NCBI GenBank assembly: GCA_018241225.1
Contig: JAFEEG010000019.1
Coordinates: 186,001-250,000, forward strand
DNA: 64,000 nt
Origin: Pseudomonadota bacterium
GTDB taxonomy: Bacteria > Pseudomonadota > Gammaproteobacteria > Burkholderiales > Burkholderiaceae_C
Direction of reading: 5' to 3'
Of the stretch, positions 47,137-51,598 are shown piece after piece. Position 1 is the stretch's first letter. Each line of letters opens with the position of its first letter. The position numbers and the translations under genes were made by a program. The notes under the pieces were generated by a model. The model was given only the letters and a program-made list of their open reading frames with translations. It was not told where the DNA came from and made no database searches.

Positions 47137-47955
47137 TCAGCTCTTGCGTGGGCGCACGCTGACTTCGGAACTGGTGATGGATTGAATGCCCGCCGCAGTA
47201 TGCACGAGCAACTCTCCGGTCCAGCCCACGCCCTCGCACAGGCCCGCGGTGCCGTCGCTGAGCTGCACCTCGCGCCCGCGCAGGGCGTCACGCGCGGCGA
47301 AACGGGCGGCCAGCGGGCCAAAGCCGGTCTCGGAAAACTCGAGTACGGTGCGCAGCAGGGGCGCTGCGATGTCAGCCAGCGCGCCAGCGGCGGTGGCCTG
47401 CGGCTGCCATTCGCGAACGCTGGCCGGCGGGGTGTTCATGCCTTGCGGATCGCGCGGGCCGATATTGATGCCGATCCCGATCACCGCATAGCGCGTGGCT
47501 GCCGATGTTTCGCCAGGCAAGGTGGCGGTCTCGATCAGGATGCCGGCCAGCTTGCGGTCTTGCAGCCACAAGTCGTTGGGCCACTTCAGCGCCAGGCCTG
47601 CGCCGGCTTGCGGATCCAGCGCTTCGGCCACCGCCACGCCCACCGCGAGCGACAGGCCCGACCAGTCGCGCGGCGCCAGTGGCAAGCCCAGCGAGAAGGT
47701 GAGCGTGGGCGCGGAATCGGCCGCGCCCACCTGGCTTTGCCAGGGCCGGCCCATGCGCCCGCGGCCGGCGTTTTGGCGCAGGGCCACCAGCAGCACCGAT
47801 TCGTTGCCGCGGCCGGCGCGCGCGCGCCGCATCAGCTCGGTGTTGGTGGAATCGATTTCCTCCACCAGCTCCACACGGCAACCCGGCAACAGCGCATCGA
47901 GCTGTGCACTGAGTTCAGCCAACGGCCAGGCGGGGGCGGCGCTCGGGGCAGTCAT
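47137..47955 (-). CDS. birA: Biotin-[acetyl-CoA-carboxylase] ligase
   Basis: Attaches biotin to the carrier protein of acetyl-CoA carboxylase. The 272-residue protein has the ligase core: EEIDSTNTELM (about 32-42), the biotinyl-AMP loop RQNAGRGRMGRPW (about 60-72), LKWPNDLWL and KLAGILIET, plus a C-terminal SH3-like domain. It lacks the N-terminal helix-turn-helix of E. coli BirA, so it is a non-repressor class ligase. It lies 10 bases after the SET-domain gene. Confidence 0.94.
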   Translation of the reverse strand: MTAPSAAPAWPLAELSAQLDALLPGCRVELVEEIDSTNTELMRRARAGRGNESVLLVALRQNAGRGRMGRPWQSQVGAADSAPTLTFSLGLPLAPRDWSGLSLAVGVAVAEALDPQAGAGLALKWPNDLWLQDRKLAGILIETATLPGETSAATRYAVIGIGINIGPRDPQGMNTPPASVREWQPQATAAGALADIAAPLLRTVLEFSETGFGPLAARFAARDALRGREVQLSDGTAGLCEGVGWTGELLVHTAAGIQSITSSEVSVRPRKS

Positions 47956-47965
47956 GGCAGGGCGC

Positions 47966-48529
47966 TCAATCCTTCTTCTTGGCCTTCTTCTTGGCCTTCT
48001 TCTTGTTCTTGGCCTTTTTCTTCTTCTTTTTCTTCTTGGACTTCTTGTCTTCGTCCTCGTCGTCCTTGGGCGAGAGCAGCGTGCCGCGGCAGGCCTCGGA
48101 ACCGCACCAGCAGGGGAACTCGGCCAGCAGCTTGGGCGTGTATTCCTCGTCGATGATCAGGCCGTAGTCGTAGTTGAGCTCTTCGCCGGCCTTGATGTTG
48201 CGCAGGGCCTTGATGAAGATTCGGCCGTCCTGCTCGTCGGCCTCGCAGTTGGGATCGCACGAGTGGTTGATCCACTTGGCCGAGTTGCCGTTGACCTTGC
48301 CGTCGATCACACGTTCGTCATCGACGTGGAAGTAGAAGGTGTGGTTGGGCTGCGACGGATCGTGGGGATGGCGGCGCAGCGCCTCTTCCCAGTTGATGAC
48401 CTCGCCCTTGTACTCGACCACGGTTTCGCCCTCGGCAATATCCTGTACGGCAAACACGCCGTTGCCATGGACGCCGGAGCGCCGCGTCTGGATGCGGCGA
48501 CCGCTGATCGGGGTGGATTTGGAAGGCAT
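47966..48529 (-). CDS. SET-domain protein lysine methyltransferase with lysine-rich tail
   Basis: A 187-residue protein with a compact SET domain (about 10-135): RSGVHGNGVFAVQDIAEGE, the SAM/catalytic pseudoknot motifs NHSCDPNCE (88-96) and GEELNYDYG (115-123). A post-SET cysteine cluster CWCGSEAC (140-147) would bind zinc with Cys91. The last ~25 residues are almost all Lys and Ala. SET enzymes methylate protein lysines; the eukaryote-like post-SET is notable in bacteria. It is divergent from a SWIB-topoisomerase gene with a 114-base gap. The target is unknown; the Lys-rich linker of that topoisomerase, or its own tail, are candidates. Confidence 0.9.
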   Translation of the reverse strand: MPSKSTPISGRRIQTRRSGVHGNGVFAVQDIAEGETVVEYKGEVINWEEALRRHPHDPSQPNHTFYFHVDDERVIDGKVNGNSAKWINHSCDPNCEADEQDGRIFIKALRNIKAGEELNYDYGLIIDEEYTPKLLAEFPCWCGSEACRGTLLSPKDDEDEDKKSKKKKKKKKAKNKKKAKKKAKKKD

Positions 48530-48575
48530 CGCCGAAGTCTGTTAGTTTGAATATGTACGCCTGCGCGTGCGCGCC

Positions 48576-48607
48576 TACGTGTACGTACGTACGTGCGTGC
48601 GCACGCG
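48576..48607. repeat. 32-bp alternating pyrimidine-purine tract
   Basis: The tract of TACG/TGCG steps alternates strictly for 32 bases, between the divergent SET and topoisomerase genes. Such sequence can adopt Z-DNA under negative supercoiling. It also contains nested GTAC palindromes. A regulatory role is inference. Confidence 0.75.
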
Positions 48608-48643
48608 AGAGAAGCGCCAGATTATGTATGTAGAGAGACCGTG

Positions 48644-51598
48644 ATGACGAAGACATTGGTGATTGCAGAAAAACCCTCGGTGGCCCAGGACATCGTGCGG
48701 GCGCTCACGCCGGTGGCTGGCAAGTTCGACAAACACGACGAGCACTTCGAGAACGAGAAGTACGTCGTGACCAGCGCCGTGGGCCACCTGGTGGAGATCC
48801 AGGCCCCCGAGGAATACGACGTGAAGCGCGGCAAGTGGAGCTTTGCCAACCTGCCGGTGATCCCCCCGCGTTTCGACCTGAAACCGGTGGACAAGACCAA
48901 GACCCGCCTGAACGCGGTGGTGAAGCAGGCCAAGCGCAAGGACGTGTCCGCGCTGGTGAACGCCTGCGACGCGGGACGCGAGGGCGAGTTGATCTTCCGC
49001 CTGATCGAGCAGTACGCCGGCGGCGCAAAGCCCCTGGGCAAGCCGGTTCAGCGGTTGTGGCTGCAGTCGATGACGCCGCAGGCGATTCGCGACGGCTTCG
49101 ATAGCCTGCGCAGCGAAAAGCAGATGCAGGGCCTGGCCGACGCAGCGCGCTCGCGCTCGGAGGCCGACTGGCTGGTGGGCATCAACGGCACGCGTGCCAT
49201 GACCGCCTTCAACTCGCGCGACGGGGGCTTCTTCCTGACCACCGTGGGCCGTGTGCAGACGCCCACGCTGTCGGTGGTGGTGGAGCGCGAGGAGCAGATC
49301 CGCAAGTTCGTCAGCCGCGACTACTGGGAAATCCACGCGACCTTCCAGGCCGAGGCCGGACAGTACCCGGGTAAATGGTTCGACCCGAACTGGAAGAAGG
49401 CCAATGCGCCCCTGCTGCCCAGCGGCGAACCCGACCCCGAACAACGCGCCGACCGTGTCTGGAACGAGCGTGACGCCCTGGCCATTGCCGACGCATCGCG
49501 CGGCAAGCCCGCCACCGTCACCGAAGAGAGCAAGCCCACCACGCAAGCCTCGCCGCTGCTGTTCGACCTGACTTCGCTGCAGCGCGAGGCCAACAGCCGC
49601 TTCGGCTTCTCGGCAAAGACCACGCTGGCGCTGGCGCAGAGCCTGTACGAGCGGCACAAGGCGCTGACCTACCCGCGTACCGATTCGCGCGCGCTGCCCG
49701 AGGACTACCTGCCAGTCGTCAAGCAGACCATGGGCATGCTTGCCAACAGCGGCATGCGCCACCTGGCGCCCTTCGCGCAGCAGGCCATCGACGGCAACTA
49801 CGTCAAGCCCAGCAAGCGCATCTTCGACAACGCCAAGGTGTCGGACCACTTCGCCATCATCCCCACGCTGCAGGCGCCCACCGGCCTGTCCGAAGCGGAG
49901 CAGCGGCTGTACGACTTCGTGGTGCGGCGCTTCCTGTCGGTGTTCTTCCCCAGCGCCGAATTCCAGGTGACCACGCGCATCAGCACGGTGGCGCACGAGG
50001 GCAGGAACTACGCCTTCCAATCCAACGGCAAGGTGCTGGTCAAGCCGGGCTGGATGGCCATCTACGGCAAGGAAGCCGTGAGCGAGGACGACGAGAAGGA
50101 CGGCAAGAACCTGGTGCCGGTGAAGCCCGGCGAGAAGGTGCTGACCGAATCGAGCGACGCGAAAGGCCTCAAGACCCGCCCGCCGGCACGCTATTCCGAA
50201 GCCACGCTGCTGGGCGCCATGGAAGGTGCGGGCAAGCTCATCGACGACGAGGAGCTGCGCGAGGCCATGCAGGAAAAGGGCCTGGGCACGCCGGCCACGC
50301 GTGCGGCCATCATCGAAGGCCTGCTGGCCGAGAAGTACATGTTGCGCGAAGGCCGCGAACTCATTCCCACCGCCAAGGCCTTCCAGTTGATGACGCTGCT
50401 GCGCGGCCTGGGCGTGGAGGAACTGTCCAAGGCCGAGCTCACCGGCGAATGGGAATACAAGCTCTCGCAGATGGAGCACGGCAAGCTCAGCCGCGACGCC
50501 TTCATGCGCGAGATCGCCGAAATGACGGAGCACATCGTCAAGAAGGCCAAGGAGTACGACCGCGACACCGTGCCGGGCGACTACGCGACGCTTTCCACGC
50601 CGTGCCCCAATTGCGGCGGCATCGTGCGCGAGAACTACCGGCGCTATGCCTGCACCGGCAAGAGCGGCAGCGGGCAGGACGCCTGCGGCTTCTCCTTCAC
50701 CAAGTCACCCGCCGGCCGCACCTTCGAGGTGGCCGAGGCCGAGGCGCTGCTGCGCAACAAGCACATCGGCCCGCTGGAGGGCTTCCGCTCCAAGGCGGGC
50801 TGGCCTTTCGTGTCGGAGATCATCCTCAAGTTCGACGAAGAGTCGAAGAATTTCAAGCTCGAGTTCGACTTCGGCGACGAGAAGGACCCGGCCGAGACGG
50901 GCGAGATCGTCGACTTCAGCGGCCAGCAGTCGCTGGGGCCCTGCCCCAAGTGCGGCAGCCGCGTGTTCGAGTACGGCAGCAATTACGTGTGCGAGAAGTC
51001 GGTGCCCACCGCTGATCAGCCCACGCCCAGCTGCAACTTCAAGTCCGGCAAGATCATCCTGCAGCAGCCGGTGTCGCCCGAGCAGGTGCAAAAGCTGCTG
51101 GCCGAAGGCAAGACCGACCTGCTGGACAAGTTCGTCAGCATGCGCACGCGGCGCGCCTTCAAGGCCTTCCTGGTGTGGAACAAGGACGAGGGCAAGGTGA
51201 CTTTCGAGTTCGAGCCGCGCACTTCCAAGTTCCCGCCGCGCAAGACGCTCGCAACCACCAAGACGCCGACGGTGACCGCGGCCAAGAAGGCGGCTGCGAA
51301 AAAGGCGCCGGCCGCCAAGAAGGCCGCGGCGGCCAAGGAGCCCAAGGCGCCCAAGGCACCGCGCAAGCCGGCTGCCGGCCTCACGCCCAGCACCGAGCTG
51401 GCCGCGGTGGTGGGCAACGAGCCCGTGGCCCGCACCGAGGTGATCAAGAAGCTGTGGGACTACATCAAGGCCAACGGCCTGCAGGACGCCAAGGACAAGC
51501 GATCCATTAATGCCGACGCGAAGCTGCGGCCCGTGTTCGGCAAGGACCAGGTCACGATGTTCGAGTTGGCCGGCATCGTCGGCAAGCACCTGAGCTGA
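48644..51598 (+). CDS. topB: DNA topoisomerase III with H1-like linker and C-terminal SWIB domain
   Basis: A 984-residue type IA topoisomerase: TOPRIM domain (about 1-140, with DAGREGELIF), the central gate with catalytic Tyr343 (LTYPRTDSR), and two C-terminal zinc-ribbon-like segments (CPNCGG ... C near 647; CPKCGS ... C near 767). Then comes a Lys/Ala/Pro linker (about 880-912) like a histone H1 tail, and a SWIB/MDM2-type domain (about 915-984, ARTEVIKKLWDYIKANGLQD). It relaxes and decatenates DNA; the SWIB part, known from chlamydial and some proteobacterial topoisomerases, is probably for protein contacts. Start ATG 48644 (GTG one codon earlier also possible). Confidence 0.93.
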   Translation: MTKTLVIAEKPSVAQDIVRALTPVAGKFDKHDEHFENEKYVVTSAVGHLVEIQAPEEYDVKRGKWSFANLPVIPPRFDLKPVDKTKTRLNAVVKQAKRKDVSALVNACDAGREGELIFRLIEQYAGGAKPLGKPVQRLWLQSMTPQAIRDGFDSLRSEKQMQGLADAARSRSEADWLVGINGTRAMTAFNSRDGGFFLTTVGRVQTPTLSVVVEREEQIRKFVSRDYWEIHATFQAEAGQYPGKWFDPNWKKANAPLLPSGEPDPEQRADRVWNERDALAIADASRGKPATVTEESKPTTQASPLLFDLTSLQREANSRFGFSAKTTLALAQSLYERHKALTYPRTDSRALPEDYLPVVKQTMGMLANSGMRHLAPFAQQAIDGNYVKPSKRIFDNAKVSDHFAIIPTLQAPTGLSEAEQRLYDFVVRRFLSVFFPSAEFQVTTRISTVAHEGRNYAFQSNGKVLVKPGWMAIYGKEAVSEDDEKDGKNLVPVKPGEKVLTESSDAKGLKTRPPARYSEATLLGAMEGAGKLIDDEELREAMQEKGLGTPATRAAIIEGLLAEKYMLREGRELIPTAKAFQLMTLLRGLGVEELSKAELTGEWEYKLSQMEHGKLSRDAFMREIAEMTEHIVKKAKEYDRDTVPGDYATLSTPCPNCGGIVRENYRRYACTGKSGSGQDACGFSFTKSPAGRTFEVAEAEALLRNKHIGPLEGFRSKAGWPFVSEIILKFDEESKNFKLEFDFGDEKDPAETGEIVDFSGQQSLGPCPKCGSRVFEYGSNYVCEKSVPTADQPTPSCNFKSGKIILQQPVSPEQVQKLLAEGKTDLLDKFVSMRTRRAFKAFLVWNKDEGKVTFEFEPRTSKFPPRKTLATTKTPTVTAAKKAAAKKAPAAKKAAAAKEPKAPKAPRKPAAGLTPSTELAAVVGNEPVARTEVIKKLWDYIKANGLQDAKDKRSINADAKLRPVFGKDQVTMFELAGIVGKHLS

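Follow-up and report, generated by a model that had tools for sequence, protein, structure and literature searches.

Why does a bacterial gene for a SET-domain lysine methyltransferase lie back to back with topB, the gene for a DNA topoisomerase III, and what connects the two? The question is raised by a stretch of 64,000 nucleotides (the window; positions 186,001 to 250,000 of contig JAFEEG010000019.1, assembly GCA_018241225.1, Burkholderiaceae_C, Burkholderiales), in which SET (47966..48529, minus strand) and topB (48644..51598, plus strand, start ATG at 48644) diverge from an intergenic region of 114 bp. The initial annotation sought the connection in the proteins, with the SET enzyme methylating a lysine-rich linker of the topoisomerase. 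The analysis reported here points to the DNA between the genes, an alternating purine-pyrimidine tract whose alternation is conserved and which may serve, in a tentative reading, as a torsion-sensing Z-DNA element.

An alternating tract between SET and topB

The tract covers 57 nt with two breaks (48551..48607). Its unbroken core of 32 nt (48576..48607) is the longest alternating run in the window, where the next longest has 16 nt, and the only run of at least 26 nt in the 6.4 Mb draft genome. For comparison, 150 genomes of the window's own family (hereafter the family) and 300 genomes of the order, whose other families are labelled f3, f4 and so on, were used. The family locus set of 81 loci comprised the window and 80 of the 132 adjacent SET/topB pairs, drawn in equal parts from those that have a long topB match and those that lack one, and a set of named genomes was formed by the best 80 of 138 relatives (Variovorax, Xenophilus, Acidovorax, Rhodoferax, Polaromonas and others). 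Of 160 intergenic regions (the window, 80 from the family and 79 from named genomes), 146 have a longest run that exceeds mononucleotide shuffles at p ≤ 0.01. Within the 81 family loci, where the median run was 23 nt, the tract exceeded mononucleotide shuffles in 70 and dinucleotide-preserving shuffles in 61. Runs of at least 26 nt were found between SET and topB in 32 of these loci and were the only ones of the genome in 27 of the 32 (purine-first count). Genomes with such runs are enriched in the family (67/150) over the other families of the order (25/291; odds ratio 8.6), and the five family genomes in the second of these samples that carry such a run have, by coordinates, at least one between SET and topB.

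The tract is flanked by two promoter-like boxes that face each other. Pointing towards topB, an extended -10-like element (TGnTAnnnT) lies on the SET side of the tract (48540..48548, plus strand), and a sigma-70-like promoter in the SET direction, TCGTCA-18-CATAAT, lies on the topB side (48621..48650, minus strand); the latter was the one promoter-like site in a scan of positions 47900-49000, with 0.2 expected. The topB-direction box was present in 74 of the 81 family loci, by a loose pattern drawn up after inspection and applied with no shuffle control. The SET-direction box TACAAT/TAGAAT (ATTGTA/ATTCTA on the topB strand) was present in 77 of the 81 as against 3.5% of shuffles, the window's own variant CATAAT being among the four misses. 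Both inward boxes occur together in 71 of the 81 loci, 45-97 bp apart. Among 79 named loci, the topB-direction box was found in 70 and, by a looser pattern, the SET-direction box in 79. If these boxes are promoters, they would face each other across the tract and both leaders would cross it.

Judged by the loci compared, the tract seems tied more closely to topB than to SET. Two of the four SET-lacking family genomes that were read keep a run of 17-21 nt beside topB, and in G376, a family genome where SET has moved away from topB, the latter retains the two boxes together with a tract that is interrupted (p 0.11 for its run of 11). The median length of the family tract is 25 nt beside a topB without the SWIB domain (n=37) and 23 nt beside one with it (n=42).

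Selection on the alternation was examined by counting substitutions between related intergenic regions, matched into 39 disjoint pairs according to their identity beyond the tract; the partner in a pair did not need to have a tract. Inside the tract there were 99 transitions and 25 transversions, outside it 146 and 202 (odds ratio 5.5, p 1.6e-13). Per aligned site, transversions were depleted about threefold inside (25/1435 vs 202/3818 outside) and transitions were raised (99/1435 vs 146/3818). As read from these alignments, the letters of the tract drift while their purine and pyrimidine classes stay. A first version of this test (153 pairs; 288 transitions and 11 transversions inside) was discarded as biased, both partners having been chosen for the tract; in that same biased set the gaps inside the tract were mostly even in length. 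The raised transitions are what would be expected of a mutational by-product without function, but the depletion of transversions, the genome-wide uniqueness of the long run in 27 of 32 loci and the conserved boxes on either side render this explanation very improbable.

Z-DNA torsion sensor or RNA leader hairpin

The transition of the tract from B- to Z-DNA was calculated for a 5-kb domain with constants for stiffness and junction twist. The dinucleotide and nucleation energies, on which the following values depend, were those in the accessible part of the source (PMC3024258). The critical superhelical density (sigma) came to -0.0402 for the window tract, with a median of -0.039 over 80 family loci, and in 75 of the 80 the intergenic region surpassed all 12 control stretches of its own locus in the calculated transition. 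That of the window tract falls within the natural range of negative sigma.

We propose that the intergenic region is a bidirectional promoter of topB and SET-birA with the tract as a torsion-sensing Z-DNA element, a reading that ranks first among those considered and that we hold with somewhat less than even confidence. Transcription towards either gene would begin at the edge of the tract farther from that gene and would cross the tract, so that polymerases departing both ways would load it with negative supercoils. Once torsion passes a threshold, the alternating DNA would flip to left-handed Z-DNA and take up several supercoils, and in its Z form would block or delay new initiation towards both genes for as long as topoisomerases have not relaxed the region. 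The expression of topB and SET would thus be tied to local DNA torsion. Extended to the whole family, as a torsion switch in which the alternation itself is selected and a flip between B- and Z-DNA (or a Z-type RNA) feeds supercoiling back on both genes, the proposal is made a shade more cautiously.

Several observations weigh against the torsion sensor. In the tile from 47761, a stretch of 12 bp would flip marginally sooner than the tract, at -0.0401, and other short runs in the window approach the tract's threshold; only its length, and hence the number of supercoils absorbed, sets the tract apart. The promoters and transcript starts are read from sequence. Eleven of the 81 family loci fail against mononucleotide shuffles and 20 against dinucleotide-preserving ones, while eight of the 81 genomes carry a 26-nt run elsewhere and none between SET and topB. 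The remaining two SET-lacking genomes have no significant run beside topB. Nor was one seen ahead of either gene in the 13 other-family loci examined, two of which covered fewer than 60 nt upstream of topB. AT/TA steps, with a frequency of 0.062 in the tract as against 0.066 expected, are not avoided beyond composition. Read on the topB strand, the tract is richer in T than in A in 56 of 68 loci, a bias that Z-DNA does not predict. The tract RNA is more stable in the topB sense than in the SET sense in 55 of the 68, and of the transitions at paired sites 46 of 63 preserve the pairing in the topB sense (0.56 expected, p 0.004; 31 of 61 in the SET sense).

Taken from the aligned loci, the strand bias and the topB-sense folding speak for either a hairpin in the RNA leader or a mutation process biased by strand. 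The hairpin is the main rival and ranks second: the tract would work at the RNA level, within the 5' leader of the topB messenger, where a stable hairpin of G-C, G-U and A-U pairs would set the stability or translation of that messenger, and such pairing would likewise deplete transversions. Relative to mononucleotide shuffles, the mean z of folding is -3.3 in the topB sense and -2.6 in the SET sense. However, the tract folds little better than shuffles in which the alternation is preserved (mean z -0.32 in the topB and -0.41 in the SET sense), with z under -2 in 2 of 68 and 8 of 68 loci, respectively, and hence no particular stem is optimised. Pairing does not require alternation within an arm, yet the alternation is kept, and the same asymmetry would arise if the topB strand were prone to C-to-T mutation. 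On balance, the hairpin appears rather unlikely. The finding that breaks of the alternation fall solely at unpaired positions (56 of 56) was dismissed as trivial, a break spoiling the pairing parity.

Conservation of the gene block

SET was found in 141 and topB in 145 of the 150 family genomes. The two genes are divergent and adjacent in 132 of the 137 genomes in which both could be placed, so that the linkage on which the initial annotation let its proposal depend is conserved; in the remaining five they lie on different contigs (four genomes) or 8.0 kb apart (G376). Of the named relatives, 79 of 80 hold both genes in the stretch taken, divergent in 79 of 79. The gene after SET on the same strand is birA in 74 of the 79 family loci with room for it and in all 78 such named loci, with SET and birA overlapping by 4 bp in 18 of the 74 and 12 of the 78. 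Seven family genomes were first counted as having topB and lacking SET; in one of them (G429; L239) a contig edge merely cuts into SET, and in the four that were read (L235-L238) topB is directly divergent from birA. A joint loss of SWIB and SET, suggested by the ends of the search matches, was rejected, the topB open reading frame of the SET-lacking L236 having a SWIB domain.

In other families the arrangement is looser. SET and topB abut tail to tail in f6 (L222-L225; 4/4 genomes, 2 to 226 bp apart), where no significant alternating run was found at the four loci. They lie 1.6 kb apart in one of two f20 genomes, 4-10 kb apart in five of seven f4 genomes, 8 kb apart in a single f8 genome and 17 kb apart in a single f10 genome; in three other f8 genomes they are on other contigs or megabases apart. 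In f32 the distance is 12.4 kb in one genome, about 12.4 kb in two more if the contig is circular, and 32 kb to 3 Mb in four. The two genes are on different contigs in all 20 genomes of f3, f13 and f47, most of which are drafts. Across the order, topB accompanies a strong SET match in 57 of 61 genomes and is present in 87 of 239 others (kinship uncorrected). The SET and topB tree distances correlate at 0.64, a figure with no null model behind it.

On this gene order, the locus is an old gene block with topB divergent from a SET-birA operon. Since birA is equally constant, the linkage marks a syntenic block and cannot by itself single out topB as the SET substrate; for the same reason, gene order alone was rejected as proof of function.

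The genes of the locus

The identity of SET given in the initial annotation, a SET/post-SET protein with a lysine tail, was borne out by Pfam, motifs and fold. The protein has 187 amino acid residues, with a Pfam SET match of 4e-25 (88.7 bits, cut-off 22.4) and a fold match to MLL SET domains, and its motifs also align to MLL1. The SET domain (residues 22-123; 48161..48466, minus strand) carries the motifs NHSC.PN and GEEL.YDY and is followed by the post-SET cysteines CWCGSEAC (residues 140-147; 48089..48112, minus strand). In 29 aligned SET sequences N88, H89, C91, G115, E117, D121 and Y122 are invariant, as are C140, C142 and C147. The two motifs, which like the post-SET cysteines are invariant or nearly so in these sequences, are those of the S-adenosylmethionine site and catalysis. 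The C-terminal tail (about residues 156-187; 47969..48064, minus strand) is acidic and then poly-Lys; among relatives it is Lys-rich and ranges from about none to more than 80 residues. Further SET matches, one to three per genome, mostly more distant and away from topB, occur in many family genomes. Ten bp downstream of SET lies a birA-like biotin-protein ligase gene (47137..47955, minus strand; Pfam BPL 5.4e-14), likely, from its position, in the same operon. A tRNA scan and an Rfam search returned nothing.

TopB, of 984 residues, matches NCBIfam PRK14724 (NF011313) over residues 1-984 with 1976.7 bits (cut-off 1088). The topoisomerase III back to back with SET indeed carries a Lys/Ala/Pro linker (about residues 859-910; 51218..51373, plus strand) and a C-terminal SWIB domain (residues 914-983; 51383..51592, plus strand; PF02201 1.3e-25, 89.4 bits, cut-off 25). 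The description of the linker as histone-H1-like holds for its Lys/Ala/Pro make-up; no match to an H1-like Pfam family (Hc1/HC2) was found on the topoisomerase at E ≤ 0.01, and by sequence the likeness to H1 tails is one of composition only. SWIB is present in 42 and absent in 37 of the topB in 79 complete adjacent family pairs, which were sampled half and half by topB match length, and on a quick tree of these 79 topB it changed four times. Beyond the family, the 300 genomes of the order yielded no SWIB match within an open reading frame of topB length.

Candidate substrates of SET

Methylation of linker lysines by SET, as a control on DNA topology, would fit the conserved neighbourhood, the Lys-rich linker, the intact SET motifs and the co-occurrence of SET and topB across the order. 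The tails of topB were read in 93 of the 135 other-family genomes with topB, 48 with and 45 without SET, the genome G132 being counted among the latter despite a weak SET match of 27 bits. The median number of lysines was 10 with SET and 6 without (p 0.04, kinship uncorrected). Within f4 the tails have 10-20 Lys with SET (seven genomes) and 3 without (two), and within f8 11-18 with SET (four) and 5-13 without (five). In contrast, eight SET-lacking genomes of f10 have 5-20 Lys in the topB tail, and the four genomes of f6, with SET convergent beside topB, have none in the tail as cut. Linker methylation thus gains little support from the comparison of tails; Lys-rich tails are frequent in both groups and over all do not track SET, adjacency to SET is seen for topB of either kind, SWIB-bearing or not, birA is as tightly linked to SET as topB is, and the action on the linker proposed in the initial annotation appears improbable.

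By analogy, SET is most likely an active cellular lysine methyltransferase on basic proteins with (A/P)KK repeats, such as the H1-like protein of the same genome. This protein (L335:4925-5449, G000 contig 14) has 174 residues with 33% Lys and 39% Ala and an HC2-family match of 1.8e-15, and is a candidate SET substrate. The genome also encodes a stand-alone SWIB protein with an N-terminal H1-like tail of (A/P)KK repeats (L337:2970-3389, G000 contig 11) and a second, bare SWIB protein (L336:2968-3225). Methylation of such basic nucleoid proteins (H1-like of the HctB type, or SWIB with an (A/P)KK tail) or of SET's own tail, with the adjacency of topB as inherited synteny, is an explanation to which we give a little under an even chance. 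It concerns SET and is compatible with the promoter model. A precedent is cpnSET of Chlamydophila pneumoniae, which methylates the H1-like Hc1 according to the available part of a review (PMC3980110), and SET and topB lie on separate contigs in f3, f13 and f47. Against it, HC2-family matches are modestly tied to SET (43 of 61 genomes with SET vs 99 of 239 others, kinship uncorrected), Hc1 (PF07432) has no match in this genome, and NUE of C. trachomatis did not methylate Hc1 in the same part of that review (PMC3980110). Bacterial SET effectors that act on eukaryotic histones are known, as far as the available part of this source goes (PMC3980110), and the nearest folds of the window protein are MLL SET domains; nonetheless, the presence of SET in 141 of 150 family genomes, in a block with topB and birA, speaks against an exported effector, the least probable of these possibilities.

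Relation to known systems

The long, SWIB-bearing topB is already a known database family, PRK14724, with a full-length match, the same length and C-terminal extension and no difference found. In the accessible part of its description (PMC12445093), the chlamydial SWIB-TopA (CtTopA) resembles the window protein in combining a type IA topoisomerase, an unstructured stretch and a C-terminal SWIB. CtTopA, however, is a topoisomerase I and the window protein a topoisomerase III, which scores 180.8 bits against PRK06319, below the cut-off of 868; hence the SWIB fusion looks parallel. The closest solved sequence and fold of SET are the SET domains of MLL/KMT2, with post-SET cysteines common to both; unlike these, the window protein is a single domain of 187 residues with a poly-Lys tail and has no known partner proteins. 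We know of no linkage to a topoisomerase gene for cpnSET. Like the window protein, it is a bacterial SET protein, likened here by description only, and is said to methylate an H1-like protein in the part of the review available (PMC3980110).

The tract shares with Z-DNA-forming promoter sequences its alternation and a calculated B-Z transition at moderate negative supercoiling. Unlike those, it is conserved in pattern over many genera and is placed next to a topoisomerase gene, between two promoter-like boxes that point inward. No paper on the tract was found, as far as titles and partial texts go, in searches on Z-DNA with topB and on Z-DNA-forming sequences in bacterial genomes, and none of the titles among the matches listed for Z-DNA and topB concerned a bacterial topB promoter. 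Searches for a SET domain lysine methyltransferase in Comamonadaceae and for topoisomerase III with SWIB in proteobacteria found nothing.

A natural, selected role of Z-DNA in bacteria is an old open question. With its drifting letters and kept alternation, in a single place of the genome and beside a topoisomerase gene, the tract offers a concrete natural site for that question. The locus also names candidate substrates for a bacterial SET enzyme. The accessible part of a 2025 paper describes the SWIB of TopA as unique to Chlamydia and the domain itself as rare among prokaryotes elsewhere (PMC12445093). SWIB was found here in 112 of the 300 genomes of the order, and SET, SWIB and a SWIB-topoisomerase are ordinary parts of an environmental bacterial family.

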